Below are positions 14,213 through 61,883 of a stretch of DNA of 64,000 bases, in pieces. This DNA is from Cinnamomum chago. Taxonomy: Eukaryota; Streptophyta; Magnoliopsida; Laurales; Lauraceae. Below the pieces are notes generated by a model. The model was not told where the DNA came from. It did no database searches and worked only from the letters and a program-made list of their open reading frames with translations. A program made the position numbers and the translations under genes. Positions within the stretch are counted from its first letter, which is position 1. The number at the start of each line of letters is the position of its first letter. Location: positions 46,759,001-46,823,000 of the forward strand of contig CP142451.1 in the NCBI GenBank assembly GCA_038049695.1, in the 5' to 3' direction.

Positions 14213-14320
14213 CAGCCCAGGTTCCCCCTCCATAACTAAAAAAAAAAAAAAGTGTAATTGCGAGTGCCAAACTATCTGCGCCCAAGGAGGGAAGGCCGAA
14301 GTTGACTTGAAACGCAAAAA

Positions 14321-37599: not shown

Positions 37600-37719
37600 G
37601 GGGGTGCAACACGAGGACTTCCCAGGAGGTCACCCATCCTAAAACTACTCTCGCCCAAGCACGCTTAACTGCGGAGTTCTGATGGGATCCGGTGCATTAG
37701 CGCTGGTATGATCGCACCC
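37600..37719 (-). rRNA. 5S rRNA: 5S rRNA gene copy 70
   Basis: Adjacent changes C78T and A77T. Homologue of copies 77 and 85. Spacer 37720-38136 is the internal crossover hybrid of the 8-unit repeat. Confidence 0.97.
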
Positions 37720-38136
37720 GGATTATATTCGCGAATGAAACTGGTTGTACCTTCCTGTTCGTGTCTTCCTGCGGCCCGGATTGGGTTGTCGGGGACGTAA
37801 GTTTCGATCCGCCCGTCGGATTCGCCAATATGATATACCGTTGGAAAGCTCGTGACGAGCAGATCGGCGCGGCAAACAGGCAAGCCCGTTGCGTGCCTCC
37901 GGCGGGGTCGGATTCGGCCATTCTCGATGCTGTATCCTCGGTTTTTTGCTCCCCGCTACCCACGCCCATCGTTCCGACACAGGGAGGACGCACGTCGCCC
38001 CAATCGTGGCCCGGATTAGGGGATCGTGATGCCCATGTGCCCCCTGCATAACTAAACAAAATAAAAAGTGTAATTGCGAGTGCCAAACGATCAGCGCCCA
38101 AGGAGGGAAGGCCGAAGTTGACTTCAAAAGCAAAAA
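37720..38136. other. Hybrid class A spacer linking 7-unit and 8-unit blocks
   Basis: The promoter-proximal part (to about 37770) matches spacer 41479-41895 at an offset of 3,759 bp. From about 37868 it matches spacer 42016-42432 at an offset of 4,296 bp (GGCGCGGCAAACAGG and GTTGCGTGCC markers). One unit has therefore been lost here, or gained in the other block, by exchange between adjacent units. Confidence 0.88.
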
Positions 38137-38256
38137 GGGGGTGCAACACGAGGACTTCCCAGGAGGTCACCCATCCTAGTACTACTCTCGCCCAAGCACG
38201 CTTCACTGCGGAGTTCTGAAGGGATCCGGTGCATTAGCGCTGGTATGATCGCACCC
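38137..38256 (-). rRNA. 5S rRNA: 5S rRNA gene copy 71, haplotype H2
   Basis: Exactly H2: T53G in the A box, A37T, and -12 C>G. Spacer 38257-38673 has the CGCAAATATG and TTCGACC markers of the H2 group. Confidence 0.97.
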
Positions 38257-38673
38257 GGATTATATTCCCGAATGAAACTGGTTGTACCTTCCGGTTCGTG
38301 TCTTCCAGCGGCCCGGATTGGGTTGTCGGGGACGTAACTTTCGATTCGCCGGTCGGATTCGCAAATATGATATACCGTTGGAAAGCTCGAGACGAGCAGA
38401 TCGGCGGGGCAAACCGGCAAGCCCGTTTCGTGCCGCCGGCGGGGTCAGATTCGACCATTCTCGATGCTGTATCCACGGTTTTTTGCTTCCCGCTCCGCAC
38501 GCCCATCGTTCCGACACCGGGAGGACGCACGTCGCCCCAATCGTGGCCCGGAATAGGGGATCGTGATGCCCATGTGCCCCCTGCATAAATAAACAAAATA
38601 AAAAGTGTAATTGCGAGTGCCAAACGATCAGCGCCCAAGGAGGGAAGGCCGAAGTTGACTTGAAAAGCAAAAA

Positions 38674-38793
38674 GGGGGTGCAACACGAGGACTTCCCAGG
38701 AGGTCACCCATCCAAGTACTAGTCTCGCCCTAGCACGCTTAGCTGCGGAGTTCTGATGGGATCCGGTGCATTAGCGCTGGTATGATCGCACCC
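38674..38793 (-). rRNA. 5S rRNA: 5S rRNA gene copy 72, haplotype H3
   Basis: Exactly H3, so the A box (T63A, T52C), IE (G72C) and C box (A80T) are all altered. The upstream spacer is 38794-39210. Confidence 0.97.
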
Positions 38794-39210
38794 GGATTAT
38801 ATTCGCGAATGAAACTGGTTGTACCTTCCGGTTCGTGTCTTCCAGCGGCCTGGATTGGGTTGTCGGGGTCGTAACTTTCAATCCGCCTGTCGGATTCGCC
38901 AATATGATATACCGTTGGAAAGCTCGGGACGAGCAGATCGGCGGGGCTAGCAGGCAAGCCCGTTTCGTGCCGCCAGCGGGGTCGTATTCGGCTATTCTCG
39001 ATGCTGTATCCTCGGTTTTTTGCTCCCCGCTCCCCACGCCCATCGTTCCGACACCGGGAGGACGCACGTCGCCCCCATCGTGGCCCAGAATAGGGGATCG
39101 TGATGCCCATGTGCCCCCTGCATAACTAAACAAAATAAAAAGTGTAATTGCGAGTGCCAAACGATCAGCGCCCAAGGAGGGAAGGCCGAAGTTGACTTCA
39201 AAAGCAAAAA

Positions 39211-39330
39211 GGGGGTGCAACACGAGGACTTCTCAGGAGGTCACCCATCCTAGTACTACTCTCGCCCAATCACGATTAACTGCGGAGTTCTGATGGGATT
39301 CGGTGCATTAGCGCTGGTATGATCGCACCC
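39211..39330 (-). rRNA. 5S rRNA: 5S rRNA gene copy 73, haplotype H4
   Basis: H4 plus G56T (A box) and G31A. Spacer 39331-39747 has the TATTGTGGATG marker. Confidence 0.97.
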
Positions 39331-39747
39331 GGATTATATTCGCGAATGAAACTGGTTGTACCTTCCGGTTCGTGTCTTCCAGCGGCCCGGATTGGGTTGT
39401 CGGGGTCGTAACTTTCGATCCGCCTGTCGGATTCGCCAATATGATATACCGTTGGAAAGCTCGGGACGAGCAGATCGGCGGAGCAAACCGGCCAGCCCGT
39501 TTCGGGCCGCCGACGGGGTCGTATTCGGCTATTGTGGATGCTGTATCCTCGGTTTTTTGCTCCCCAGTCCCCACGCCCATCGTTCCGACACAGGGAGGAC
39601 GCACGTCGCCCCAATCGTGGCCCGGATTAGGGGATCGTGATGCCCATGTGCCCCCTGCATAACTAAACAAAATAAAAAGTGTAATTGCGAGTGCCAAACG
39701 ATCAGCGCCCAAGGAGGGAAGGCCGAAGTTGACTTCAAAAGCAAAAA

Positions 39748-39867
39748 GGGGGTGCAACACGAGGACTTCCCAGGAGGTCACCCAACCTAGTACTACTCTC
39801 GCCCAAGCACGCTTCACTGCGGAGTTCTGATGGGATTCGGTGCATTAGCGCTGGTATGATCGCACCA
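39748..39867 (-). rRNA. 5S rRNA: 5S rRNA gene copy 74, haplotype H6
   Basis: Exactly H6. The upstream spacer is 39868-40284. Confidence 0.97.
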
Positions 39868-40284
39868 GGATTATATTCGCGAATGAAACTGGTTGTACCT
39901 TCCTGTTCGTGTCTTCCAGCGGCCCGGATTGGGTTGTCGGGGACGTAACTTTCGATCCGCCCGTCGGATTCGCCAATATGATATACCGTTGGAAAGCTCG
40001 GGACGAGCATATCGGGGGAGCAAACAGGCAAGCCCGTTTCGTGCCGCCGGCGGGGTCGGATTCGGCCATTCTCGATGCTGTATCCTCGGTTTTTTGCTCC
40101 CCGCCCCGCACGCCCATCGTTCCGACACCGGGAGGACGCACGTCGCCCCCATCGTGGCCCGGAATAGGGGATCGTGATGCCCATGTTCCCCCTGCTTAAC
40201 TAAACAAAATAAAAAGTGTAATTGCGAGTACCAAACGATCAGCGCCCAAGGAGGGAAGGCCGAAGTTGACTTCAAAAGCAAAAT

Positions 40285-40404
40285 GGGGGTGCAACATGAG
40301 GACTTCCCAGGAGGTCACCCATCCTAGTACTACTCTCGCCCAAGCACGCTTAACTGCGGAGTTCTGATGGGATCCGGTGCATTAGCGCTGGTATGATCGC
40401 ACCC
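40285..40404 (-). rRNA. 5S rRNA: 5S rRNA gene copy 75
   Basis: Change G108A only; the terminator is interrupted (four T). Spacer 40405-40821 has the CTAGCCACC marker. Confidence 0.97.
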
Positions 40405-40821
40405 GGATTATATTCGCGAATGAAACTGGTTGTACATTCCGGTTCGTGTCTTCCAGCGGCCCGGATTGGGTTGTCGGGGACGTAACTTTCGATCCGCCCG
40501 TCGGATTCGCCAGTATGATATACCGTTGGAAAGCTCGGGACGAGCGGATCGGCGGGGCAATTCGGCAAGCCCGTTTCTAGCCACCGGCGGGGTCGGATTC
40601 GGCCATTCTCGATGCTGTATCCACGGTTTTTTGCTCCCCGCTCCCCACGCCCATCGTTCCGACACCGGGAGGACGCACGTCGCCCCCATAGTGGCCCGGA
40701 ATAAGGGATCGTGATGCCCATGTGCCCCCTGCATAACTAAACAAAATGAAAAGTGTAATTGCGAGTGCCAAACGATCAGCGCCCAAGGAGGGAAGGCCGA
40801 AGTTGACTTCAAAAGCAAAAA

Positions 40822-40941
40822 GGGGGTGCAACACGAGGACTTCCCAGGAGGTCACCAATCCTAGTACTACTCTCGCCCAAGCACGCTTAACTGCAGAGTT
40901 CTGATGGGATCCGGTGCATTAGCGCTGGTATGATCGCACCC
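40822..40941 (-). rRNA. 5S rRNA: 5S rRNA gene copy 76
   Basis: Changes: G85T, C47T. Spacer 40942-41358 has the GTTCTTGTCTTCCTG marker. Confidence 0.97.
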
Positions 40942-41358
40942 GGATTATATTCGCGAATGAAACTGGTTGTACCTTCCGGTTCTTGTCTTCCTGCGGCCCG
41001 GATTGGGTTGTCGGGGACGTAACTTTCGATCCGCCAGTCGGATTCGCCAATATGATATACCGTTGGAAAGCTCGGGACGAGCAGATCGGCAGGGCAAACC
41101 GGCAAGCCCGTTTCGTGCCGCCGGCGGGGTCGGATTCGGCCATTCTCGATGCTGTATCCACGGTTTTTTGCTCCTCGCTCCCCACGCCCATCGTTCCGAC
41201 ACCGGGAGGACGCACGTCGCCCCCATCGTGGCCCGGAATAGGGGATCGTGATGCCCATGTGCCCCCTGCATAACTAAACAAAATAAAAAGTGTAAGTGGG
41301 AGTGCCAAACGATCAGCGCCCAAGGAGAGAAAGCCGAAGTTGACTTCAAAAGCAAAAA

Positions 41359-41478
41359 GGGGGTGCAACACGAGGACTTCCCAGGAGGTCACCCATCCTA
41401 AAACTACTCTCGCCCAAGCACGATTAACTGCGGAGTTCTGATGGGATCCGGTGCATTAGCGCTGGTATGATCGCACCC
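41359..41478 (-). rRNA. 5S rRNA: 5S rRNA gene copy 77
   Basis: Changes: C78T, A77T, G56T. The upstream spacer is 41479-41895. Confidence 0.97.
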
Positions 41479-41895
41479 GGATTATATTCGCGAATGAAAC
41501 TGGTTGTACCTTCCTGTTCGTGTCTTCCTGCGGCCCGGATTGGGTTGTCGGGGACGTAACTTTCGATCCGCCCGTCGGATTCGCCAATATGATATACCGT
41601 TGGAAAGCTCGGGACGAGCAGATCGGCGGGGCAAACAGGCAAGCCAGTTTCGTGCCTCCGGCGGGGTCGGATTCGGCCATTCTCGATGCTTTATCCTCGG
41701 TTTTTTGCTCCCCGCTCCCCACGCCTATCGTTCCGACACCGGGAGGACGCACGTCGCCCCAATCGTGGCCCGGAATAGGGGATCGTAATGCCCATGTGCC
41801 CCCTGCATAACTAAACAAAATAAAAAGTGTAATTGCGAGTGCCAAACGATCAGCACCCAAGGAGGGAAGGCCGAAGTTGACTTCAAAAGCAAAAA

Positions 41896-42015
41896 GGGGG
41901 TGCAATACGAGGACTTCCCAGGAGGTCACCCATCCTAGTACTACTCTCGCCCAAGCACGCTTAACTGCGGGGTTCTGATGGGATCCGGTGCATTAGCGCT
42001 GGTATGATCGCACCC
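41896..42015 (-). rRNA. 5S rRNA: 5S rRNA gene copy 78
   Basis: Changes: G110A, T45C. Spacer 42016-42432 has the GGCGCGGCAAACAGG marker. Confidence 0.97.
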
Positions 42016-42432
42016 GGATTATATTCGCGAATGAAACTGGTTGTACCTTCCGGTTCGTGTCTTCCAGCGGCCCGGATTGTGTTGTCGGGGACGTAACTTT
42101 CGATCCGCCCGTCGGATTCGCCAATATGATATACCGTTGGAAAGCTCGGGACGAGCAGATCGGCGCGGCAAACAGGCAAGCCCGTTGCGTGCCTCCGGCG
42201 GGGTCGGATTCGGCCATTCTCGATGCTGTATCCTCGGTTTTTTGCTCCCCGCTCCCCGCGCCCATCGTTCCGACACCGGGAGGACGCACGTCGCCCCAAT
42301 CGTGGCCCGGATTAGGGGATCGTGATGCCCATGTGCCCCCTGCATAACTAAACAAAATAAAAAGTGTAATTGCGAGTGCCAAACGATCAGCGCCCAAGGA
42401 GGGAAGGCCGAAGTTGACTTCAAAAGCAAAAA

Positions 42433-42552
42433 GGGGGTGCAACACGAGGACTTCCCAGGAGGTCACCCATCCTAGTACTACTCTCGCCCAAGCACGCTTC
42501 ACTGCGGAGTTCTGAAGGGATCCGGTGCATTAGCGCTGGTATGATCGCACCC
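42433..42552 (-). rRNA. 5S rRNA: 5S rRNA gene copy 79, haplotype H2
   Basis: Exactly H2 with -12 C>G. The upstream spacer is 42553-42969. Confidence 0.97.
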
Positions 42553-42969
42553 GGATTATATTCCCGAATGAAACTGGTTGTACCTTCCGGTTCGTGTCTT
42601 CCAGCGGCCCGGATTGGGTTGTCGGGGACGTAACTTTCGATTCGCCGGTCGGATTCGCAAATATGATATACCGTTGGAAAGCTCGGGACGAGCAGATCGG
42701 CGGGGCAAACCGGCAAGCCCGTTTCGTGCCGCCGGCGGGGTCAGATTCGACCATTCTCGATGCTGTATCCACGGTTTTTTGCTTCCCGCTCCGCACGCCC
42801 ATCGTTCCGACACCGGGAGGACGCACGTCGCCCCAATCGTGGCCCGGAATAGGGGATCGTGATGCCCATGTGCCCCCTGCATAAATAAACAAAATAAAAA
42901 GTGTAATTGCGAGTGCCAAACGATCAGCGCCCAAGGAGGGAAGGCCGAAGTTGACTTGAAAAGCAAAAA

Positions 42970-43089
42970 GGGGGTGCAACACGAGGACTTCCCAGGAGGT
43001 CACCCATCCAAGTACTAGTCTCGCCCTAGCACGCTTAGCTGCGGAGTTCTGATGGGATCCGGTGCATTAGCGCTGGTATGATCGCACCC
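42970..43089 (-). rRNA. 5S rRNA: 5S rRNA gene copy 80, haplotype H3
   Basis: Exactly H3. The upstream spacer is 43090-43506. Confidence 0.97.
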
Positions 43090-43506
43090 GGATTATATTC
43101 GCGAATGAAACTGGTTGTACCTTCCGGTTCGTGTCTTCCAGCGGCCCGGATTGGGTTGTCGGGGTCGTAACTTTCGATCCGCCTGTCGGATTCGCCAATA
43201 TGATATACCGTTGGAAAGCTCGGGACGAGCAGATCGGCGGGGCAAGCAGGCAAGCCCGTTTCGTGCCGCCAGCGGGGTCGTATTCGGCTATTCTCGATGC
43301 TGTATCCTCGGTTTTTTGCTCCCCGCTCCCCACGCCCATCGTTCCGACACCGGGAGGACGCACGTCGCCCCCATCGTGGCCCAGAATAGGGGATCGTGAT
43401 GCCCATGTGCCCCCTGCATAACTAAACAAAATAAAAAGTGTAATTGCGAGTGCCAAACGATCAGCGCCCAAGGAGGGAAGGCCGAAGTTGACTTCAAAAG
43501 CAAAAA

Positions 43507-43626
43507 GGGGGTGCAACACGAGGACTTCTCAGGAGGTCACCCATCCTAGTACTACTCTCGCCCAATCACGATTAACTGCGGAGTTCTGATGGGATCCGGT
43601 GCATTAGCGCTGGTATGATCGCACCC
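43507..43626 (-). rRNA. 5S rRNA: 5S rRNA gene copy 81, haplotype H4
   Basis: H4 plus G56T. The upstream spacer is 43627-44043. Confidence 0.97.
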
Positions 43627-44043
43627 GGATTATATTCGCGAATGAAACTGGTTGTACCTTCCGGTTCGTGTCTTCCAGCGGCCCGGATTGGGTTGTCGGG
43701 GTCGTAACTTTCGATCCGCCTGTCGGATTCGCCAATATGATATACCGTTGGAAAGCTCGGGACGAGCAGATCGGCGGAGCAAACCGGCTAGCCCGTTTCG
43801 GGCCGCCGACGGGGTCGTATTCGGCTATTGTGGATGCTGTATCCTCGGTTTTTTGCTCCCCAGTCCCCACGCCCATCGTTCCGACACAGGGAGGACGCAC
43901 GTCGCCCCAATCGTGGCCCGGATTAGGGGATCGTGATGCCCATGTGCCCCCTGCATAACTAAACAAAATAAAAAGTGTAATTGCGAGTGCCAAACGATCA
44001 GCGCCCAAGGAGGGAAGGCCGAAGTTGACTTCAAAAGCAAAAA

Positions 44044-44163
44044 GGGGGTGCAACACGAGGACTTCCCAGGAGGTCACCCAACCTAGTACTACTCTCGCCC
44101 AAGCACGCTTCACTGCGGAGTTCTGATGGGATTCGGTGCATTAGCGCTGGTATGATCGCACCA
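44044..44163 (-). rRNA. 5S rRNA: 5S rRNA gene copy 82, haplotype H6
   Basis: Exactly H6. The upstream spacer is 44164-44580. Confidence 0.97.
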
Positions 44164-44580
44164 GGATTATATTCGCGAATGAAACTGGTTGTACCTTCCT
44201 GTTCGTGTCTTCCAGCGGCCCGGATTGGGTTGTCGGGGACGTAACTTTCGATCCGCCCGTCGGATTCGCCAATATGATATACCGTTGGAAAGCTCGGGAC
44301 GAGCATATCGGGGGAGCAAACAGGCAAGCCCGTTTCGTGCCGCCGGCGGGGTCGGATTCGGCCATTCTCGATGCTGTATCCTCGGTTTTTTGCTCCCCGC
44401 CCCGCACGCCCATCGTTCCGACACCGGGAGGACGCACGTCGCCCCCATCGTGGCCCGGAATAGGGGATCGTGATGCCCATGTTCCCCCTGCTTAACTAAA
44501 CAAAATAAAAAGTGTAATTGCGAGTACCAAACGATCAGCGCCCAAGGAGGGAAGGCCGAAGTTGACTTCAAAAGCAAAAT

Positions 44581-44700
44581 GGGGGTGCAACATGAGGACT
44601 TCCCAGGAGGTCACCCATCCTAGTACTACTCTCGCCCAAGCACGCTTAACTGCGGAGTTCTGATGGGATCCGGTGCATTAGCGCTGGTATGATCGCACCC
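44581..44700 (-). rRNA. 5S rRNA: 5S rRNA gene copy 83
   Basis: Change G108A, with the interrupted terminator of copy 75. Spacer 44701-45117 has the CTAGCCACC marker. Confidence 0.97.
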
Positions 44701-45117
44701 GGATTATATTCGCGAATGAAACTGGTTGTACATTCCGGTTCGTGTCTTCCAGCGGCCCGGATTGGGTTGTCGGGGACGTAACTTTCGATCCGCCCGTCGG
44801 ATTCGCCAGTATGATATACCGTTGGAAAGCTCGGGACGAGCGGATCGGCGGGGCAATTCGGCAAGCCCGTTGCTAGCCACCGGCGGGGTCGGATTCGGCC
44901 ATTCTCGATGCTGTATCCACGGTTTTTTGCTCCCCGCTCCCCACGCCCATCGTTCCGACACCGGGAGGACGCACGTCGCCCCCATAGTGGCCCGGAATAA
45001 AGGATCGTGATGCCCATGTGCCCCCTGCATAACTAAACAAAATAAAAAGTGTAATTGCGAGTGCCAAACGATCAGCGCCCAAGGAGGGAAGGCCGAAGTT
45101 GACTTCAAAAGCAAAAA

Positions 45118-45237
45118 GGGGGTGCAACACGAGGACTTCCCAGGAGGTCACCAATCCTAGTACTACTCTCGCCCAAGCACGCTTAACTGCAGAGTTCTGA
45201 TGGGATCCGGTGCATTAGCGCTGGTATGATCGCACCC
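45118..45237 (-). rRNA. 5S rRNA: 5S rRNA gene copy 84
   Basis: Changes: G85T, C47T. The upstream spacer is 45238-45654. Confidence 0.97.
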
Positions 45238-45654
45238 GGATTATATTCGCGAATGAAACTGGTTTTACCTTCCGGTTCTTGTCTTCCTGCGGCCCGGATT
45301 GGGTTGTCGGGGACGTAACTTTCGATCCGCCAGTCGGATTCGCCAATATGATATACCGTTGGAAAGCTCGGGACGAGCAGATCGGCAGGGCAAACCGGCA
45401 AGCCCGTTTCGTGCCGCCGGCGCGGTCGGATTCGGCCATTCACGATGCTGTATCCACGGTTTTTTGCTCCCCGCTCCCCACGCCCATCGTTCCGACACCG
45501 GGAGGACGCACGTCGCCCCCATCGTGGCCCGGAATAGGGGATCGTGATGCCCATGTGCCCCCTGCATAACTAAACAAAATAAAAAGTGTAATTGGGAGTG
45601 CCAAACGATCAGCGCCCAAGGAGAGAAAGCCGAAGTTGACTTCAAAAGCAAAAA

Positions 45655-45774
45655 GGGGGTGCAACACGAGGACTTCCCAGGAGGTCACCCATCCTAAAAC
45701 TACTCTCGCCCAAGCACGCTTAACTGCGGAGTTCTGATGGGATCCGGTGCATTAGCGCTGGTATGATCGCACCC
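45655..45774 (-). rRNA. 5S rRNA: 5S rRNA gene copy 85
   Basis: Changes: C78T, A77T, without the G56T of copy 77. The upstream spacer is 45775-46191. Confidence 0.97.
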
Positions 45775-46191
45775 GGATTATATTCGCGAATGAAACTGGT
45801 TGTACCTTCCTGTTCGTGTCTTCCTGCGGCCCGGATTGGGTTGTCGGGGACGTAACTTTCGATCCGCCCGTCGGATTCGCCAATATGATATACCGTTGGA
45901 AAGCTCGGGACGAGCAGTTCGGCGGGGCAAACAGGCAAGCCAGTTTCGTGCCTCCGGCGGGGTCGGATTCGGCCATTCTCGATGCTTTATCCTCGGTTTT
46001 TTGCTCCCCGCTCCCCACGCCTATCGTTCCGACACCGGGAGGACGCACGTCGCCCCAATCGTGGCCCGGAATAGGGGATCGTAATGCCCATGTGCCCCCT
46101 GCATAACTAAACAAAATAAAAAGTGTAATTGCGAGTGCCAAACGATCAGCGCCCAAGGAGGGAAGGCCGAAGTTGACTTCAAAAGCAAAAA

Positions 46192-46311
46192 GGGGGTGCA
46201 ATACGAGGACTTCCCAGGAGGTCACCCATCCTAGTACTACTCTCGCCCAAGCACGCTTAACTGCGGGGTTCTGATGGGATCCGGTGCATTAGCGCTGGTA
46301 TGATCGCACCC
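46192..46311 (-). rRNA. 5S rRNA: 5S rRNA gene copy 86
   Basis: Changes: G110A, T45C. The upstream spacer is 46312-46728. Confidence 0.97.
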
Positions 46312-46728
46312 GGATTATATTCGCGAATGAAACTGGTTGTACCTTCCGGTTCGTGTCTTCCAGCGGCCCGGATTGTGTTGTCGGGGACGTAACTTTCGAT
46401 CCGCCCGTCGGATTCGCCAATATGATATACCGTTGGAAAGCTCGGGACGAGCAGATCGGCGCGGCAAACAGGCAAGCCCGTTGCGTGCCTCCGGCGGGGT
46501 CGGATTCGGCCATTCTCGATGCTGTATCCTCGGTTTTTTGCTCCCCGCTCCCCGCGCCCATCGTTCCGACACCGGGAGGACGCACGTCGCCCCAATCGTG
46601 GCCCGGATTAGGGGATCGTGATGCCCATGTGCCCCCTGCATAACTAAACAAAATAAAAAGTGTAATTGCGAGTGCCAAACGATCAGCGCCCAAGGAGGGA
46701 AGGCCGAAGTTGACTTCAAAAGCAAAAA

Positions 46729-46848
46729 GGGGGTGCAACACGAGGACTTCCCAGGAGGTCACCCATCCTAGTACTACTCTCGCCTAAGCACGCTTCACTG
46801 CGGAGTTCTGAAGGGATCCGGTGCATTAGCGCTGGTATGATCGCACCC
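46729..46848 (-). rRNA. 5S rRNA: 5S rRNA gene copy 87, haplotype H2
   Basis: H2 with -12 C>G, plus G64A in the A box. The upstream spacer is 46849-47265. Confidence 0.97.
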
Positions 46849-47265
46849 GGATTATATTCCCGAATGAAACTGGTTGTACCTTCCGATTCGTGTCTTCCAG
46901 CGGCCCGGATTGGGTTGTCGGGGAAGTAACTTTCGATTCGCCCGTCGGATTCGCAAATATGATATACCGTTGGAAAGCTCGGGACGAGCAGATCGGCGGG
47001 GCAAACCGGCAAGCCCGTTTCGTGCCGCCGGCGGGGTCAGATTCGACCATTCTCGATGCTGTATCCACGGTTTTTTGCTCCCCGCTCCGCACGCCCATCG
47101 TTCCGACACCGGGAGGACGCACGTCGCCCCCATCGTGGCCCGGAATAGGGGATCGTGATGCCCATGTGCCCCCTGCATAACTAAACAAAATAAAAAGTAT
47201 AATTGCGAGTGCCAAACGATCAGCGCCCAAGGAGGGAAGGCCGAAGTTGACTTCAAAAGCAAAAA

Positions 47266-47803: not shown

Positions 47804-47923
47804 GGGGGTGCAACACGAGGACTTCCCAGGAGGTCACCCATCCAAGTACTACTCTCGCCCTAGCACGCTTAGCTGCGGAGTTCTGATGGGATCCGGTGCA
47901 TTAGCGCTGGTATGAACGCACCC
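47804..47923 (-). rRNA. 5S rRNA: 5S rRNA gene copy 89, H3-like
   Basis: H3 without G72C, plus A8T. Spacer 47924-48340 has the GCACGGGACGAGAAG marker shared with spacer 51683-52099. Confidence 0.97.
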
Positions 47924-49414: not shown

Positions 49415-49534
49415 GGGGGTGCAACACGAGGACTTCCCAGGAGGTCACCCATCCTAGTACTACTCTCGCCCAAGCACGCTTCACTGCGGAGTTCTGAAGG
49501 GATCCGGTGCATTAGCGCTGGTATGATCGCACCC
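49415..49534 (-). rRNA. 5S rRNA: 5S rRNA gene copy 92, haplotype H2
   Basis: Exactly H2 with -12 C>G. Spacer 49535-49951 is a variant of the H2 spacer without the TTCGACC marker. Confidence 0.97.
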
Positions 49535-49951: not shown

Positions 49952-50071
49952 GGGGGTGCAACACGAGGACTTCCCAAGAGGTCACCCATCCAAGTACTAG
50001 TCTCGCCCTAGCACGCTTAGCTGCGGAGTTCTGATGGGATCCGGTGCATTAGCGCTGGTATGATCGCACCC
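49952..50071 (-). rRNA. 5S rRNA: 5S rRNA gene copy 93, haplotype H3
   Basis: H3 plus C95T, a fifth change inside control elements. The upstream spacer is 50072-50488. Confidence 0.97.
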
Positions 50072-51562: not shown

Positions 51563-51682
51563 GGGGGTGCAACACGAGGACTTCCCAGGAGGTCACCCAT
51601 CCAAGTACTACTCTCGCCCTAGCACGCTTAGCTGCGGAGTTCTGATGGGATCCGGTGCATTAGCGCTGGTATGATCGCACCC
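51563..51682 (-). rRNA. 5S rRNA: 5S rRNA gene copy 96, H3-like
   Basis: H3 without G72C, as in copy 89. The upstream spacer is 51683-52099. Confidence 0.97.
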
Positions 51683-52636: not shown

Positions 52637-52756
52637 GGGGGTGCAACACGAGGACTTCTCAGGAGGTCACCCATCCTAGTACTACTCTCGCCCAATCACG
52701 CTTAACTGCGGAGTTCTGATGGGATCCGGTGCATTAGCGCTGGTATGATCGCACCC
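52637..52756 (-). rRNA. 5S rRNA: 5S rRNA gene copy 98, haplotype H4
   Basis: Exactly H4. Spacer 52757-53173 contains the left edge of the 3,758-bp duplication. Confidence 0.97.
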
Positions 52757-53094
52757 GGATTATATTCGCGAATGAAACTGGTTGTACCTTCCGGTTCGTG
52801 TCTTCCAGCGGCCCGGATTGGGTTGTCGGGGTCGTAACTTTCGATCCGCCTGTCGGATTCGCCAATATGATATACCGTTGGAAAGCTCGGGACGAGCAGA
52901 TCGGCGGGGCAAGCAGGCAAGCCCGTTTCGTGCCGCCTGCGGGGTCGTATTCGGCTATTCTCGATGCTGTATCCTCGGTTTTTTGCTCCCCGCTCCCCAC
53001 GCCCATCGTTCCGACACCGGGAGGACGCACGTCGCCCCCATCGTGGCCCAGAATAGGCGATCGTGATGCCCATGTGCCCCCTGCATAACTAAAC

Positions 53095-53104
53095 AAAATA
53101 AAAA
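53095..53104 (-). terminator. Possible second T-rich stop in class A spacers
   Basis: On the RNA strand this reads T5-A-T4, about 70-80 bases beyond the gene end. In class B spacers the same place holds an unbroken run of 8-14 T. A back-up termination role is an inference from the position and base content. Confidence 0.5.
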
Positions 53105-53168
53105 GTGTAATTGCGAGTGCCAAACGATCAGCGCCCAAGGAGGGAAGGCCGAAGTTGACTTCAAAAGC

Positions 53169-53173
53169 AAAAA
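53169..53173 (-). terminator. Polymerase III T-run after 5S copy 99
   Basis: Five T on the RNA strand directly follow the last C of the gene. The same run ends nearly every copy; exceptions with a mismatch next to the gene or a shorter run include copies 12, 16, 17, 22, 67 and 75. Confidence 0.9.
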
Positions 53174-53196
53174 GGGGGTGCAACACGAGGACTTCC

Positions 53197-53214
53197 CAGG
53201 AGGTCACCCATCCT
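53197..53214 (-). promoter_or_regulatory. C box (internal promoter) of copy 99
   Basis: RNA positions 80-97, a binding site for TFIIIA in plant 5S genes. The majority sequence is AGGATGGGTGACCTCCTG. Confidence 0.85.
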
Positions 53215-53221
53215 AGTACTA

Positions 53222-53227
53222 CTCTCG
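53222..53227 (-). promoter_or_regulatory. Intermediate element of copy 99
   Basis: RNA positions 67-72, CGAGAG. Changes here recur in copies 7, 10, 21, 45, 67, 97 and in all H3 and H5 copies. Confidence 0.8.
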
Positions 53228-53229
53228 CC

Positions 53230-53244
53230 CAAGCACGCTTAACT
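53230..53244 (-). promoter_or_regulatory. A box of copy 99
   Basis: RNA positions 50-64, AGTTAAGCGTGCTTG. It is the element most often altered in amplified haplotypes (H1, H2, H3, H4, H6). Confidence 0.85.
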
Positions 53245-53293
53245 GCGGAGTTCTGATGGGATCCGGTGCATTAGCGCTGGTATGATCGCACCC

Positions 53294-53325
53294 GGATTAT
53301 ATTCGCGAATGAAACTGGTGGTACC
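53294..53325 (-). promoter_or_regulatory. Upstream promoter element of copy 99
   Basis: On the RNA strand C is at -1, an ATATAAT-like stretch lies at -4 to -10 and GC at -13/-12. C at -1 and GC near -12 are known requirements in Arabidopsis 5S genes. The TATA-like motif usually placed near -28 is not there; an AT-rich stretch sits next to the start instead. Confidence 0.7.
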
Positions 53326-53521
53326 TTCCTGTTCGTGTCTTCCAGCGGCCCGGATTGGGTTGTCGGGGACGTAACTTTCGATCCGCCCGTCGGATTCGCC
53401 AATATGATATACCGTTGGAAAGCTCGGGACGAGCAGATCGGCGGGGCAAACAAGCAAGCCCGTTTCGTGCCGCCGGCGGGGTCGGATTCGGCCATTCTCG
53501 ATGCTGTATCCTCGGTTTTTT

Positions 53522-53535
53522 GCTCCCCGCTCCCC
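53522..53535. repeat. 7-bp tandem duplication diagnostic of class A
   Basis: GCTCCCC occurs twice in a row here but once in class B. This alone accounts for the 537 versus 530 bp unit lengths. Confidence 0.92.
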
Positions 53536-53710
53536 ACGCCCATCGTTCCGACTCCGGGAGGACGCACGTCGCCCCAATCGTGGCCCGGAATAGGAGATCG
53601 TGATGCCCATGTGCCCCCTGCATAACTAAACAAAATAAAAAGTGTAATTGCGAGTGCCAAACGATCAGCGCCCAAGGAGGGAAGGCCGAAGTTGACATCA
53701 AAAGCAAAAA

Positions 53711-53830
53711 GGGGGTGCAACACGAGGACTTCTCAGGAGGTCACCCATCCTAGTACTACTCTCGCCCAATCACGCTTAACTGCGGAGTTCTGATGGGATC
53801 CGGCGCATTAGCGCTGGTATGATCGCACCC
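53711..53830 (-). rRNA. 5S rRNA: 5S rRNA gene copy 100, haplotype H4
   Basis: H4 plus A27G. The upstream spacer is 53831-54247. Confidence 0.97.
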
Positions 53831-54247
53831 GGATTATATTCGCGAATGAAACTGGTTGTACCTTCCGGTTCGTGTCTTCCAGCTGCCCGGATTGGGTTGT
53901 CGGGGACGTAACTTTCGATCCGCCCGTCGGATTCGCCAATATGATATACCGTTGGAAAGCTCGGGACGAGCAGGTCGGCGGGGCAAACCGGCAAACCCGT
54001 TTCGTGCCGCCGGCGGGGTCGGATTCGGCCATTCTCGATGCTGTATCCACGATTTTTTGCTCCCCGCTCCGCACGTTCATCGTTCCGACACCGGGAGGAC
54101 GCACGTCGCCCCTATCGTGGCCCGGAATAGGGGATCGTGATGCCCATGTGCCCCCTGCATAACTAAACAAAATAAAAAGTGTAATTGCGAGTGCCAAACG
54201 ATCAGCGCCCAAGGAGGGAAGGCCGAAGTTGACTTCAAAAGCAAAAA

Positions 54248-54367
54248 GGGGGTGCAACACGAGGACTTCTCAGGAGGTCACCCATCCTAGTACTATTCTC
54301 GCCCAAGCACGCTTAACTGCGGAGTTCTGATGGGATCCGGGGCATTAGCGCTAGTATGATCGCACCC
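54248..54367 (-). rRNA. 5S rRNA: 5S rRNA gene copy 101, haplotype H5
   Basis: Exactly H5 with -1 C>T. The upstream spacer is 54368-54784. Confidence 0.97.
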
Positions 54368-54784
54368 AGATTATATTCGCGAATGAAACTGGTTGTACCT
54401 TCCGGTTCGTGTCTTCCAGCGGCCCGGATTGGGTTGTCGGGGACGTAACTTTCGATCCGCGCGTCGGATTCGCCAGTATGATATACCGTTGGAAAGCTCG
54501 GAACGAGCAGATCAGCGGGGCAAACCGGCAAGCCCGTTTCGGGCCGCCGGCGGGGTCGTATTCGGCTATTCTCGATGCTGTATCCTCGGTTTTTTGCTCC
54601 CCGCTCCGCACGCCCATCGTTCCGACACCGGGAGGACGCACGTCGCCCCTATCGTGGCCCGGAATAGGGGATCGTGATGCCCATGTGCCCCCTGCATAAC
54701 TAAACAAAATAAAAAGTGTAATTGCGAGTGCCAAACGATCAGCGCCCAAGGAGGGAAGGCCGAAGTTGACTTCAAAAGCAAAAA

Positions 54785-54904
54785 GGGGGAGCAACACGAG
54801 GACTTCTCAGGAGGTCACCCATCCTAGTACTATTCTCGCCCAAGCACGCTTAACTGCGGAGTTCTGATGGGATCCGGGGCATTAGCGCTAGTATGATCGC
54901 ACCC
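54785..54904 (-). rRNA. 5S rRNA: 5S rRNA gene copy 102, haplotype H5
   Basis: H5 with -1 C>T, plus A115T in the closing stem. The upstream spacer is 54905-55321. Confidence 0.97.
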
Positions 54905-55321
54905 AGATTATATTCGCGAATGAAACTGGTTGTACCTTCCGGTTCGTGTCTTCCAGCGGCCCGGATTGGGTTGTCGGGGACGTAACTTTCGATCCGCGCG
55001 TCGGATTCGCCAGTATGATATACCGTTGGAAAGCTCGGAACGAGCAGATCAGCGGGGCGAACCGGCAAGCCCGTTTCGGGCCGCCGGCGGGGTCGTATTC
55101 GGCTATTCTCGATGCTGTATCCTCGGTTTTTTGCTCCCCGCTCCGCACGCCCATCGTTCCGACACCGGGAGGACGCACGTCGCCCCCATCGTGGCCCGGA
55201 ATAGGGGATCGTGATGCCCATGTTCCCCCTACATAACTAAAGAAAATAAAAAGTGTAATTGCGAGTGCCAAACGATCAGCGCCCAAGGAGGGAAGGCCGA
55301 AGTTGACTTCAGAAGCAAAAA

Positions 55322-55441
55322 GGGGGTGCAACACGAGGACTTCTCAGGAGGTCACCCATCCTAGTACTACTCTCGCCCAATCACGCTTAACTGCGGAGTT
55401 CTGATGGGATCCGGTGCATTAGCGCTGGTATGATCGCACCC
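55322..55441 (-). rRNA. 5S rRNA: 5S rRNA gene copy 103, haplotype H4
   Basis: Exactly H4. Spacer 55442-55857 is one base short (TCTTCAGCGG for TCTTCCAGCGG). Confidence 0.97.
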
Positions 55442-55857
55442 GGATTATATTCGCGAATGAAACTGGTTGTACCTTCCGGTTCGTGTCTTCAGCGGCCCGG
55501 ATTGGGTTGTCGGGGTCGTAACTTTCGATCCGCCTGTCGGATTCGCCAATATGATATACCGTTGGAAAGCTCGGGACGAGCAGATCGGCGAGGCAAGCAG
55601 GCAAGCCCGTTTCGTGCCGCCTGCCGGGTCGTATTCGGCTATTCTCGATGCTGTATCCTCGGTTTTTTGCTCCCCGCTCCCCACGCCCATCGTTCCGACA
55701 CCGGGAGGACGCACGTCGCCCCTATCGTGGCCCGGAATAGGGGATCGTGATGCCCATGTGCCCCCTGCATAACTAAACAAAATAAAAAGTGTAATTGCGA
55801 GTGCCAAACGATCAGCGCCCAAGGAGGGAAGGCCGAAGTTGACTTCAAAAGCAAAAA

Positions 55858-55977
55858 GGGGGTGCAACACGAGGACTTCCCAGGAGGTCACCCATCCTAG
55901 TACTACTCTCGCCCAAGCACGCTTCACTGCGGAGTTCTGAAGGGATCCGGTGCATTAGCGCTGGTATGATCGCACCC
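55858..55977 (-). rRNA. 5S rRNA: 5S rRNA gene copy 104, haplotype H2
   Basis: Exactly H2 with -12 C>G. Spacer 55978-56394 has one private change near 56210. Confidence 0.97.
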
Positions 55978-56394
55978 GGATTATATTCCCGAATGAAACT
56001 GGTTGTACCTTCCGGTTCGTGTCTTCCAGCGGCCCGGATTGGGTTGTCGGGGACGTAACTTTCGATTCGCCGGTCGGATTCGCAAATATGATATACCGTT
56101 GGAAAGCTCGGGACGAGCAGATCGGCGGGGCAAACCGGCAAGCCCATTTCGTGCCGCCGGCGGGGTCAGATTCGACCATTCTCGATGCTGTATCCACGGT
56201 ATTTTGCTCCCCGCTCCGCACGCCCATCGTTCCGACACCGGGAGGACGCACGTCGCCCCAATCGTGGCCCGGAATAGGGGATCGTGATGCCCATGTGCCC
56301 CCTGCATAAATAAACAAAATAAAAAGTGTAATTGCGAGTGCCAAACGATCAGCGCCCAAGGAGGGAAGGCCGAAGTTGACTTGAAAAGCAAAAA

Positions 56395-56514
56395 GGGGGT
56401 GCAACACGAGGACTTCCCAGGAGGTCACCCATCCAAGTACTAGTCTCGCCCTAGCACGCTTAGCTGCGGAGTTCTGATGGGATCCGGTGCATTAGCGCTG
56501 GTATGATCGCACCC
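56395..56514 (-). rRNA. 5S rRNA: 5S rRNA gene copy 105, haplotype H3
   Basis: Exactly H3. Spacer 56515-56931 holds the duplication junction: its left part (G-GATGTACC at 56537) matches spacer 60273-60689 and its right part matches spacer 52757-53173. Confidence 0.97.
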
Positions 56515-56539
56515 GGATTATATTCGCGAATGAAACTGG

Positions 56540-56682
56540 ATGTACCTTCCGGTTCGTGTCTTCCAGCGGCCCGGATTGGGTTGTCGGGGTCGTAACTTTC
56601 GATCCGCCTGTCGGATTCGCCAATATGATATACCGTTGGAAAGCTCGGGACGAGCAGATCGGCGGGGCAAGCAGGCAAGCCC
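56540..56682. other. Junction interval of the 3,758-bp duplication
   Basis: The last base shared only with the 60.3 kb spacer lies at 56539 and the first base shared only with the 52.8 kb spacer lies at 56683, so the exchange fell between them. Confidence 0.85.
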
Positions 56683-56931
56683 GTTTCGTGCCGCCTGCGG
56701 GGTCGTATTCGGCTATTCTCGATGCTGTATCCTCGGTTTTTTGCTCCCCGCTCCCCACGCCCATCGTTCCGACACCGGGAGGACGCACGTCGCCCCCATC
56801 GTGGCCCAGAATAGGCGATCGTGATGCCCATGTGCCCCCTGCATAACTAAACAAAATAAAAAGTGTAATTGCGAGTGCCAAACGATCAGCGCCCAAGGAG
56901 GGAAGGCCGAAGTTGACTTCAAAAGCAAAAA

Positions 56932-57051
56932 GGGGGTGCAACACGAGGACTTCCCAGGAGGTCACCCATCCTAGTACTACTCTCGCCCAAGCACGCTTAA
57001 CTGCGGAGTTCTGATGGGATCCGGTGCATTAGCGCTGGTATGATCGCACCC
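56932..57051 (-). rRNA. 5S rRNA: 5S rRNA gene copy 106, exact majority sequence
   Basis: No changes; duplicate of copy 99. The upstream spacer 57052-57468 differs from its twin by one base near 57206. Confidence 0.98.
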
Positions 57052-57468
57052 GGATTATATTCGCGAATGAAACTGGTGGTACCTTCCTGTTCGTGTCTTC
57101 CAGCGGCCCGGATTGGGTTGTCGGGGACGTAACTTTCGATCCGCCCGTCGGATTCGCCAATATGATATACCGTTGGAAAGCTCGGGACGAGCAGATCGGC
57201 GGGGCAAAGAAGCAAGCCCGTTTCGTGCCGCCGGCGGGGTCGGATTCGGCCATTCTCGATGCTGTATCCTCGGTTTTTTGCTCCCCGCTCCCCACGCCCA
57301 TCGTTCCGACTCCGGGAGGACGCACGTCGCCCCAATCGTGGCCCGGAATAGGAGATCGTGATGCCCATGTGCCCCCTGCATAACTAAACAAAATAAAAAG
57401 TGTAATTGCGAGTGCCAAACGATCAGCGCCCAAGGAGGGAAGGCCGAAGTTGACATCAAAAGCAAAAA

Positions 57469-57588
57469 GGGGGTGCAACACGAGGACTTCTCAGGAGGTC
57501 ACCCATCCTAGTACTACTCTCGCCCAATCACGCTTAACTGCGGAGTTCTGATGGGATCCGGCGCATTAGCGCTGGTATGATCGCACCC
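57469..57588 (-). rRNA. 5S rRNA: 5S rRNA gene copy 107, haplotype H4
   Basis: H4 plus A27G, as copy 100. The upstream spacer is 57589-58005. Confidence 0.97.
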
Positions 57589-58005
57589 GGATTATATTCG
57601 CGAATGAAACTGGTTGTACCTTCCGGTTCGTGTCTTCCAGCTGCCCGGATTGGGTTGTCGGGGACGTAACTTTCGATCCGCCCGTCGGATTCGCCAATAT
57701 GATATACCGTTGGAAAGCTCGGGACGAGCAGGTCGGCGGGGCAAACCGGCAAACCCGTTTCGTGCCGCCGGCGGGGTCGGATTCGGCCATTCTCGATGCT
57801 GTATCCACGATTTTTTGCTCCCCGCTCCGCACGTTCATCGTTCCGACACCGGGAGGACGCACGTCGCCCCTATCGTGGCCCGGAATAGGGGATCGTGATG
57901 CCCATGTGCCCCCTGCATAACTAAACAAAATAAAAAGTGTAATTGCGAGTGCCAAACGATCAGCGCCCAAGGAGGGAAGGCCGAAGTTGACTTCAAAAGC
58001 AAAAA

Positions 58006-58125
58006 GGGGGTGCAACACGAGGACTTCTCAGGAGGTCACCCATCCTAGTACTATTCTCGCCCAAGCACGCTTAACTGCGGAGTTCTGATGGGATCCGGGG
58101 CATTAGCGCTAGTATGATCGCACCC
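58006..58125 (-). rRNA. 5S rRNA: 5S rRNA gene copy 108, haplotype H5
   Basis: Exactly H5 with -1 C>T, as copy 101. The upstream spacer is 58126-58542. Confidence 0.97.
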
Positions 58126-58542
58126 AGATTATATTCGCGAATGAAACTGGTTGTACCTTCCGGTTCGTGTCTTCCAGCGGCCCGGATTGGGTTGTCGGGG
58201 ACGTAACTTTCGATCCGCGCGTCGGATTCGCCAGTATGATATACCGTTGGAAAGCTCGGAACGAGCAGATCAGCGGGGCAAACCGGCAAGCCCGTTTCGG
58301 GCCGCCGGCGGGGTCGTATTCGGCTATTCTCGATGCTGTATCCTCGGTTTTTTGCTCCCCGCTCCGCACGCCCATCGTTCCGACACCGGGAGGACGCACG
58401 TCGCCCCTATCGTGGCCCGGAATAGGGGATCGTGATGCCCATGTGCCCCCTGCATAACTAAACAAAATAAAAAGTGTAATTGCGAGTGCCAAACGATCAG
58501 CGCCCAAGGAGGGAAGGCCGAAGTTGACTTCAAAAGCAAAAA

Positions 58543-58662
58543 GGGGGAGCAACACGAGGACTTCTCAGGAGGTCACCCATCCTAGTACTATTCTCGCCCA
58601 AGCACGCTTAACTGCGGAGTTCTGATGGGATCCGGGGCATTAGCGCTAGTATGATCGCACCC
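58543..58662 (-). rRNA. 5S rRNA: 5S rRNA gene copy 109, haplotype H5
   Basis: H5 with -1 C>T and A115T, as copy 102. The upstream spacer is 58663-59079. Confidence 0.97.
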
Positions 58663-59079
58663 AGATTATATTCGCGAATGAAACTGGTTGTACCTTCCGG
58701 TTCGTGTCTTCCAGCGGCCCGGATTGGGTTGTCGGGGACGTAACTTTCGATCCGCGCGTCGGATTCGCCAGTATGATATACCGTTGGAAAGCTCGGAACG
58801 AGCAGATCAGCGGGGCGAACCGGCAAGCCCGTTTCGGGCCGCCGGCGGGGTCGTATTCGGCTATTCTCGATGCTGTATCCTCGGTTTTTTGCTCCCCGCT
58901 CCGCACGCCCATCGTTCCGACACCGGGAGGACGCACGTCGCCCCCATCGTGGCCCGGAATAGGGGATCGTGATGCCCATGTTCCCCCTACATAACTAAAG
59001 AAAATAAAAAGTGTAATTGCGAGTGCCAAACGATCAGCGCCCAAGGAGGGAAGGCCGAAGTTGACTTCAGAAGCAAAAA

Positions 59080-59199
59080 GGGGGTGCAACACGAGGACTT
59101 CTCAGGAGGTCACCCATCCTAGTACTACTCTCGCCCAATCACGCTTAACTGCGGAGTTCTGATGGGATCCGGTGCATTAGCGCTGGTATGATCGCACCC
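59080..59199 (-). rRNA. 5S rRNA: 5S rRNA gene copy 110, haplotype H4
   Basis: Exactly H4. Spacer 59200-59615 has the one-base loss of spacer 55442-55857. Confidence 0.97.
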
Positions 59200-59615
59200 G
59201 GATTATATTCGCGAATGAAACTGGTTGTACCTTCCGGTTCGTGTCTTCAGCGGCCCGGATTGGGTTGTCGGGGTCGTAACTTTCGATCCGCCTGTCGGAT
59301 TCGCCAATATGATATACCGTTGGAAAGCTCGGGACGAGCAGATCGGCGAGGCAAGCAGGCAAGCCCGTTTCGTGCCGCCTGCCGGGTCGTATTCGGCTAT
59401 TCTCGATGCTGTATCCTCGGTTTTTTGCTCCCCGCTCCCCACGCCCATCGTTCCGACACCGGGAGGACGCACGTCGCCCCTATCGTGGCCCGGAATAGGG
59501 GATCGTGATGCCCATGTGCCCCCTGCATAACTAAACAAAATAAAAAGTGTAATTGCGAGTGCCAAACGATCAGCGCCCAAGGAGGGAAGGCCGAAGTTGA
59601 CTTCAAAAGCAAAAA

Positions 59616-59735
59616 GGGGGTGCAACACGAGGACTTCCCAGGAGGTCACCCATCCTAGTACTACTCTCGCCCAAGCACGCTTCACTGCGGAGTTCTGAAG
59701 GGATCCGGTGCATTAGCGCTGGTATGATCGCACCC
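59616..59735 (-). rRNA. 5S rRNA: 5S rRNA gene copy 111, haplotype H2
   Basis: Exactly H2 with -12 C>G. The upstream spacer is 59736-60152. Confidence 0.97.
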
Positions 59736-60152
59736 GGATTATATTCCCGAATGAAACTGGTTGTACCTTCCGGTTCGTGTCTTCCAGCGGCCCGGATTGG
59801 GTTGTCGGGGACGTAACTTTCGATTCGCCGGTCGGATTCGCAAATATGATATACCGTTGGAAAGCTCGGGACGAGCAGATCGGCGGGGCAAACCGGCAAG
59901 CCCATTTCGTGCCGCCGGCGGGGTCAGATTCGACCATTCTCGATGCTGTATCCACGGTTTTTTGCTCCCCGCTCCGCACGCCCATCGTTCCGACACCGGG
60001 AGGACGCACGTCGCCCCAATCGTGGCCCGGAATAGGGGATCGTGATGCCCATGTGCCCCCTGCATAAATAAACAAAATAAAAAGTGTAATTGCGAGTGCC
60101 AAACGATCAGCGCCCAAGGAGGGAAGGCCGAAGTTGACTTGAAAAGCAAAAA

Positions 60153-60272
60153 GGGGGTGCAACACGAGGACTTCCCAGGAGGTCACCCATCCAAGTACTA
60201 GTCTCGCCCTAGCACGCTTAGCTGCGGAGTTCTGATGGGATCCGGTGCATTAGCGCTGGTATGATCGCACCC
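60153..60272 (-). rRNA. 5S rRNA: 5S rRNA gene copy 112, haplotype H3
   Basis: Exactly H3. Spacer 60273-60689 has the TTCGTCTATTC marker shared with spacer 63495-63911. Confidence 0.97.
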
Positions 60273-60689
60273 GGATTATATTCGCGAATGAAACTGGATG
60301 TACCTTCCGGTTCGTGTCTTCCAGCGGCCCGGATTGGGTTGTCGGGGTCGTAACTTTCGATCCGCCTGTCGGATTCGCCAATATGATATACCGTTGGAAA
60401 GCTCGGGACGAGCAGATCGGCGGGGCAAGCAGGCAAGCCCATTTCGTGCCGCCAGCGGGGTCGTATTCGTCTATTCTCGATGCAGTATCCTCGGTTTTTT
60501 GCTCCCCGCTCCCCACGCCCATCGTTCCGACACCGGGAGGACGCACGTCGCCCCCATCGTGGCCCAGAATAGGGGATCGTGATGCCCATGTGCCCCCTGC
60601 ATAACTAAACAAAATAAAAAGTGTAATTGCGAGTGCCAAACGATCAGCGCCCAAGGAGGGAAGGCCGAAGTTGACTTCAAAAGCAAAAA

Positions 60690-60809
60690 GGGGGTGCAAC
60701 ACGAGGACTTCTCAGGAGGTCACCCATCCTAGTACTACTCTCGCCCAATCACGCTTAACTGCGGGGTTCTGTTGGGATCCGGTGCATTAGCGCTGGTATG
60801 ATCGCACCC
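60690..60809 (-). rRNA. 5S rRNA: 5S rRNA gene copy 113, haplotype H4
   Basis: H4 plus T45C and T38A, as copy 94. The upstream spacer 60810-61226 differs from spacer 50609-51025 at about one base. Confidence 0.97.
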
Positions 60810-61226
60810 GGATTATATTCGCGAATGAAACTGGTTGTACCTTCCGGTTCGTGTCTTCCAGCGGCCCGGATTGGGTTGTCGGGGTCGTAACTTTCGATCC
60901 GCCTGTCGGATTCGCCAATATGATATACCGTTGGAAAGCTCGGGACGAGCAGATCGGCGGAGCAAACCGGCCAGCCCGTTTCGGGCCGCCGGCGGGGTCG
61001 TATTCGGCTATTGTGGATGCTGTATCCTCGGTTTTTTGCTCCCCACTCCCCACGCCCATCGTTCCGACACCGGGAGGACGCACGTCGCCCCCATCGTGGC
61101 CCGGAATAGGGGATCGTGATGCCCATGTGCCCCCTGCATAACTAAACAAAATAAAAAGTGTAATTGCGAGTGCCAAACGATCAGCGCCCAAGGAGGGAAG
61201 GCCGAAGTTGACTTCAAAAGCAAAAA

Positions 61227-61346
61227 GGGGGTGCAACACGAGGACTTCCCAGGAGATCACCCAACCTACTACTACTCTCGCCCAAGCACGCTTCACTGCG
61301 GAGTTCTGATGGGATCCGGTGCATTAGCGCTGGTATGATCGCACCC
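61227..61346 (-). rRNA. 5S rRNA: 5S rRNA gene copy 114
   Basis: Changes: C91T, A83T, C78G, T53G, i.e. the 3' half of copy 95 joined to a normal 5' end (G31 and G1 intact). A crossover or conversion tract inside the gene is likely. The upstream spacer is 61347-61763. Confidence 0.96.
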
Positions 61347-61763: not shown

Positions 61764-61883
61764 GGGGGTGCAACACGAGGACTTCTCAGGAGGTCACCCA
61801 TCCTAGTACTATTCTCGCCCAAGCACGCTTAACTGCAGAGTTCTGATGGGATCCGGGGCATTAGCGCTAGTATGATCGCACCC
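61764..61883 (-). rRNA. 5S rRNA: 5S rRNA gene copy 115, haplotype H5
   Basis: H5 with -1 C>T, plus C47T. The upstream spacer is 61884-62300. Confidence 0.97.

Follow-up and report, generated by a model that had tools for sequence, protein, structure and literature searches.

Recurrence of two neighbouring 5S rRNA gene alleles within duplicated blocks of a 5S array flank in Cinnamomum chago

Two substituted 5S rRNA gene haplotypes, here called H2 and H3, lie side by side six times in a stretch of 64,000 nucleotides of Cinnamomum chago DNA (C1:46759001-46823000), which is referred to throughout as the window. The locus raises the question of why the same two altered genes recur as neighbours, and of whether the changes that they carry in and near the 5S promoter have a part in it. 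A preliminary description of the sequence had regarded them as a pair of promoter-damaged genes that spread together with larger blocks.

The window was found to lie within a plant-type 5S rDNA array (gene and spacer type were judged by eye), on its left flank, since the leftmost 5S gene found, at C1:46738985, adjoins sequence that is retrotransposon-like by eye. There were 120 matches to the 5S rRNA family (RF00001) in the window, every one on the minus strand and two truncated by the ends of the window, and the unit length in the window and the neighbouring array was mostly 530-539 bp. Genome-wide searches of 1.06 Gb in 14 contigs gave 1571 places (20 forward, 1551 reverse) that match the gene's first 31 bases with three or fewer mismatches, and 527 exact copies of the 119-base canonical gene. 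All comparisons between zones were based on 264 kb of contiguous array sequence and four 10-kb samples, from which 518 units were aligned; the analysis of adjacency used 447 of 455 genes, eight having been excluded for their start motif or spacing. Canonical genes were absent from the three leftmost zones (98 units) and made up 2 of the 87 units in the zone that contains H2 and H3, and 1/134, 13/82 and 14/46 in the three zones that follow it. In the 10-kb samples they numbered 17 of 18 at 47.035 Mb and 13 of 17 at 47.200 Mb, and 0 of 18 at both 47.400 and 47.560 Mb. The homogenised core, at 47.035 Mb, is outside the window, and most of the flank genes read bear substitutions. Erosion was much stronger than in the left flank in the right-hand sample at C1:47560001-47570000, where 17 of 18 genes carry between 5 and 15 changes or have an indel.

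The H2 gene carries A37T and T53G, and its upstream sequence, TTCGGGAATATAATCC, shows a C-to-G change at -12, so that the combination of an A-box change with -12 C>G that had been described for it was seen again. The H3 gene carries T52C, T63A, G72C and A80T. In the first pair, H2 (copy 71) occupies 38138..38256, with the -12 change in the 45 bp upstream of it (38257..38301), and H3 (copy 72) occupies 38675..38793; both genes are RF00001 matches, and these features, like all the genes below, are on the minus strand. The other five pairs are formed by H2 copy 79 (42434..42552) and H3 copy 80 (42971..43089), H2 copy 92 (49416..49534) and H3 copy 93 (49953..50071), H2 copy 104 (55859..55977) and H3 copy 105 (56396..56514), H2 copy 111 (59617..59735) and H3 copy 112 (60154..60272), and H2 copy 117 (62839..62957) and H3 copy 118 (63376..63494). 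All six neighbouring pairs were therefore present as reported, with H3 exact in five of the six copies and an additional C95T in copy 93. Four further adjacent pairs lie to the right of the window (low coordinates of H2 at C1:46825061, 46828283, 46831498 and 46834720), the last of which has an H3 with C28T and T73C, for a total of 10 pairs within 38.2 kb. The units of both haplotypes are 537 bp long, with one of 530, and neither gene haplotype contains a C>T change.

An exact-pattern search, which misses copies changed inside the signature, found the H2 signature 11 times in the genome and the H3 signature 15 times when either G or C was allowed at position 72 (9 C, 6 G), all at C1:46.797-46.848 Mb. 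Among the 518 aligned units the H2 family has 12 members, including derivatives with G64A or T52C, and the H3 family has 16, of which 6 are without G72C. A G at -12 was present upstream of all 12 genes of the H2 family and of one other gene. At window coordinates 46730-47805 and 78943-80018, one other unit stands between an H2 derivative and an H3-type gene, and adjacency of H2 and H3 is therefore not a fixed property. The first of these places consists of an H2 derivative with G64A (copy 87, 46730..46848), followed by an unrelated unit that is not H3, and of an H3-type gene without G72C and with A8T (copy 89, 47805..47923).

Duplicated blocks were identified by scanning for mismatches along diagonals, and the H2-H3 pairs were found inside blocks of 98.8-99.9% identity. 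Tandem Repeats Finder, whose maximum period of 500 falls below the unit length, reported no repeat. Pairs 1 and 2 belong to a tandem duplication of eight units (37676..47180; 4296 bp, 99.40% identical), pairs 4 and 5 to one of seven units (52706..60711; 3758 bp, 99.81% identical), and pairs 5 to 10 to a run of six-unit blocks (3222 bp, 99.8%) that starts within the window at 59248..64000 and continues to window coordinate 77866. Pair 3 lies within a stretch of 2.1-2.6 kb that is common to other blocks. The blocks are 99.4-99.8% identical, compared to a pairwise difference of approximately 4% among the units of the zone, and thus qualify as higher-order repeats. Chance recurrence was ruled out because the pairs sit in near-identical duplicated blocks. 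The pair was also ruled out as an amplification unit of its own, because the blocks comprise 6 to 8 units and other pairs are equally or more frequent: the 442 adjacent unit pairs fell into 266 ordered haplotype pairs, of which the two commonest recur 11 times each, while exact H2-H3 recurs 8 times and ranks 4-5. The duplications of 8, 7 and 6 units, at offsets of 4296, 3758 and 3222 bp, bear out the earlier proposal that the pair spread with the blocks, and our data indicate that it was multiplied passively as part of copied multi-unit blocks.

Larger tandem blocks were observed elsewhere in the array. These included blocks of 17 units (about 9059 bp, 99.8-99.9%) at window coordinates 5144-23270 and of 18 units (9462 bp, 99.98%) at window coordinates -14198 to 4764, as well as a block of 16 units (8575 bp) in about three copies at 99.9%, at window coordinates 163947-191245.

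We consider it quite probable that H2 and H3 are among many mutated alleles in an unhomogenised 5S array flank, multiplied passively by block duplication. The contrast between flank and core is plain in the counts of canonical genes, and its cause may be that the left flank escapes the homogenisation that holds the core canonical. Flank genes collect substitutions at about the rate of the spacer in the pooled counts given below. Multi-unit blocks of the flank, which are themselves observed, would have been duplicated in tandem repeatedly, most simply through unequal exchange or replication-based repair, and H2 and H3, neighbours by chance, would have been copied along in blocks of 8, 7 and 6 units. 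Loss of function was probably neither required nor selected for. Similar behavior has been described for human and wheat rDNA, in which edge copies escape homogenisation and decay (PMC10462631), and the maize 5S array is described as having an old, diverse end (PMC10335936).

The collection of substitutions at the spacer rate was examined first with variants carried by only one or two units of a zone. In the eight zones besides that of H2 and H3, 295 of 1341 such variants (22.0%) fell in the gene, compared to 22.2% expected by length (p=0.92), with a gene share of 9 to 30% in single zones. For comparison between block copies, 13 block pairs were chosen from the 120 found by the diagonal scan. 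These showed 32 gene differences in 18420 sites and 136 spacer differences in 64702 (p=0.35), and 8 differences in 5994 sites of the promoter boxes versus 24 in 12426 of the rest of the gene (p=0.45); the deficit of changes in the control region relative to the remaining gene was not significant. The pooled counts show that flank genes gather substitutions at roughly the spacer rate, with the exceptions that are given below for the H2/H3 zone and for rare bases.

The alternative that retains the most weight after this is the one favored by the preliminary description, in which H2 and H3 are promoter-dead, silenced and methylated pseudogenes that were multiplied as junk. We regard it as possible but doubtful. 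The boxes of the internal promoter were placed at positions 50-64 (A), 67-72 (IE) and 80-97 (C), which we take to be their limits. H2 gives the claim of promoter damage some substance, in that T53G falls on an upper-case, strongly conserved A-box base of the 5S model and -12 C>G destroys the GC at -12/-11. A plant study places a GC dinucleotide at -11/-12 (PMC8928438). The family score of H2 was 107.3 bits (ranks 18-23 of the 120 window matches), 4.7 bits below the canonical reference gene (copy 99, 53175..53293; 112.0 bits). These scores come from a covariance model that reflects the RNA and only indirectly the binding of TFIIIA or TFIIIC.

For H3 the same claim was not supported. Five of its window copies scored 110.4 bits, at ranks 4-8 of 120, and the copy with C95T scored 109.9, which rules out H3 as the most damaged gene. 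The combination T52C, T63A and A80T, that is H3 without G72C, has no cost in the model at 112.1 bits, and the copy 96 gene of this type (51564..51682) has the highest 5S family score of the window. Position 52 pairs with G25 in the family structure, and T52C turns a G-U into a G-C pair; positions 37, 53, 63, 72 and 80 are unpaired. T63A matches the consensus letter of the model, and the consensus at position 80 is lower-case, with A and T both tolerated in scoring. In some Asteraceae, the genic C-box is described as differing at position 80, in our numbering, and at two others (PMC10853983). Both haplotypes are 119 nt long, scored above the RF00001 gathering score of 38 with model positions 1-120 covered, and were free of truncation, indel or loss of fold. 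Predicted minimum free energies were -44.5 kcal/mol for H2, -42.3 for H3, -40.9 for the H3 type without G72C and -43.5 for the canonical gene, and the window copies of H2 and H3 are directly followed by a Pol III terminator T-run, CTTTTTGC. In Xenopus, 5S genes carry C at position 52 and T at position 80, with G at 53 in the oocyte type.

Three elements of the plant 5S external promoter were looked for: a TATA-like motif between -28 and -23, a GC at -12/-11 and a C at -1. Between -28 and -23 the consensus of the 518 aligned units reads CAACCA and thus lacks the TATA-like motif; it has instead a TATA-like stretch at -10 to -3, together with the GC and the C at -1. In the core, the last 45 upstream bases of all 18 units sampled at 47.035 Mb are identical to this consensus. 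The promoter rules of other plants therefore carry over only partly. Judged from sequence, H2 is more likely to be the weak gene of the two, and H3 probably still passes as a 5S gene, whose silencing would not follow from its bases.

Changes in the boxes are not unusual among the window units, and H2 and H3 are not special in this respect. At least one box change was present in 84 of 112 units and at least two in 33 of 112, with 7 of 119 units left out. Among the 68 indel-free, non-canonical distinct haplotypes of the window, 85 of 238 changes fell in the boxes versus 78.0 expected with the box limits that we assumed. The concentration of all H3 changes in boxes was rejected as a signal: haplotypes with at least three changes, all of them in boxes, numbered 3, from one lineage, versus 0.95 expected.

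Methylation is the other part of the dead-pseudogene reading. Subsets of Arabidopsis 5S genes are described as silenced via CG and CHG methylation (PMC2691480), and transitions at CG and CHG sites were raised in other parts of the array. In genes at 46.7494-46.7955, transitions per site were 0.64 at CG, 0.64 at CHG and 0.34 at CHH, and in the right-hand spacer 0.73, 0.74 and 0.48. In the H2/H3 zone, however, the signature of deamination was weak, with values of 0.20, 0.31 and 0.24 in the spacer and 0.14, 0.36 and 0.16 in the gene, and a CpG observed/expected ratio of 1.12. Between block copies, over all 13 block pairs, the ts/tv ratio was 78/90 (0.87). The spectrum of 5S decay described for Atropa is rich in C>T and G>A, which account for 42 of 44 transitions in the clones, and as decay proceeds the share of transitions there rises from 50.0 to 74.1% (PMC5260122). 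The weakness of the signature is not decisive against methylation, since methylated pike 5S rDNA is described as lacking such an enrichment of transitions (PMC5437419).

The low ts/tv ratio was not confined to the block copies. For distinct variants it was 86/129 in the H2/H3 zone and 0.57-0.98 in the other zones. It was low in every frequency class of the 244 kb at C1:46739000-46983000, a stretch that retains its full CpG content (0.42-0.90, with one class of the H2/H3 zone at 1.11) and is therefore not explained by single-copy errors, with the qualification that counts of distinct variants are partly saturated. Eight copies of a dispersed repeat obtained with a query from the left flank, 94-95% like the query, gave 125/62 (2.0), which differs from the block pairs (Fisher p=0.0001), in a single close control family of lower G+C and CpG content than the array. 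Two older pairs of flank repeats, 79 and 82% alike, gave 1.25 and 1.42. If the transversion-rich spectrum is general, it would give independent information on the mutation of array DNA.

An improbable alternative is that selection maintains H2 and H3 as functional minor variants of the 5S gene, for example through tissue-specific expression. In addition to the family score of H3, a predicted fold energy near that of the canonical gene and the retained terminator, it has the depletion of young gene differences in its favor. Within the H2/H3 zone, five block pairs gave 6 differences in 5352 gene sites against 64 in 19509 spacer sites (Fisher p=0.0055; one-sided P=0.021 by a shift test that keeps the clustering), while the eight block pairs outside the zone gave 26/13068 and 72/45193 (p=0.33). 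Differences whose rarer base occurs in at most three units were likewise few in genes across all 13 block pairs (4 gene, 47 spacer; p=0.011) and in the zone (1 and 26; p=0.019), but not outside it (3 and 21; p=0.33), and differences involving commoner bases showed no depletion (28 and 89 in the 13 block pairs; p=0.66). These tests overlap one another and were made after the H2/H3 zone was known. Of the rare variants of the zone, 14 of 110 were in the gene (p=0.016), a value that loses significance once corrected for nine zones, and singletons examined zone by zone gave no clear pattern (p 0.08 to 0.92). Against selection on the two genes, the 11 H2 and 9 H3 (C at 72) exact copies among approximately 1571 genes all lie in one stretch of 50 kb, and the boxes of the zone had 0.41 distinct variants per site, no fewer than the 0.29 of the remaining gene sequence. 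Evidence of selection from comparison within haplotypes was set aside because the families had been picked by gene haplotype. The depletion of young gene differences weighs against neutral decay of the flank and is taken as a hint, no more, of residual constraint or of gene-centred conversion.

A combination of these observations would make the H2/H3 zone a still constrained and still transcribed minor 5S class, in an array mutated by a transversion-rich process, such as error-prone copying during block duplication, rather than by decay of methyl-cytosine; we consider this a long shot. Tandem arrays are hard to assemble, but that the block repeats are false duplications of the assembly is very improbable: rare substitutions distinguish the block copies and the offsets differ (8, 7 and 6 units).

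The flank has close counterparts in other systems. Decay at array edges, diverse ends of rDNA arrays and multi-unit 5S blocks are already published, and the recurrence of H2-H3 is real and mostly ordinary array evolution. The eroded edges described in human and wheat (PMC10462631) and in the maize 5S array (PMC10335936) likewise combine a homogeneous part with a diverse, decaying end, with variants confined to sub-regions; here, in contrast, the flank itself is made up of multi-unit blocks that are repeated and in which gene alleles can be recognised. Pike 5S rDNA is likewise described as having blocks of several 5S units as larger repeat units, but no significant pseudogenisation is reported for it (PMC5437419), whereas most of the flank genes read here are substituted. 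The minor 5S species of Arabidopsis, like H2 and H3, differ from the major gene at few positions; they are described as derepressed in methylation mutants (PMC2691480), whereas H2 and H3 are known from DNA alone. The 5S pseudogenes of Atropa share altered upstream signals and extra gene substitutions with the genes described here, but their spacer deletions and C>T-rich spectra (PMC5260122) are seen in neither H2 nor H3 units. No publication on the H2 and H3 alleles was found in the literature searched.

At the level of single bases, the locus gives a view of 5S gene alleles that spread through block duplication irrespective of the state of their promoters. It also cautions that a 5S variant should not be called dead on box positions alone. 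Haplotypes labelled in this way make the expressed fraction of 5S genes directly measurable.

Other 5S genes of the window and genome were also noted. A family with C15T, A27C, G72A and G98A (window copies at 54249, 54786, 58007, 58544 and 61765) carries a C-to-T change at -1, a start-site base that is described as required in the Atropa study (PMC5260122), and its sequence makes it a better candidate than H3 for loss of a promoter or start signal. The gene at window 26381-26499 is disrupted in its 3' part; it gave a 107-base match to the full model with 67.6 bits, the lowest score of the matches uncut by the window ends. Among the matches listed, stray 5S sequences outside the array, perhaps moved pieces or 5S-bearing retroelements for which Cassandra elements would be candidates, were located at C1:48284928 and 48289474 (both on the plus strand), C2:72574601, C6:26538105, C9:18501162 and C11:7320299, with 0-1 mismatch within the first 31 bases.
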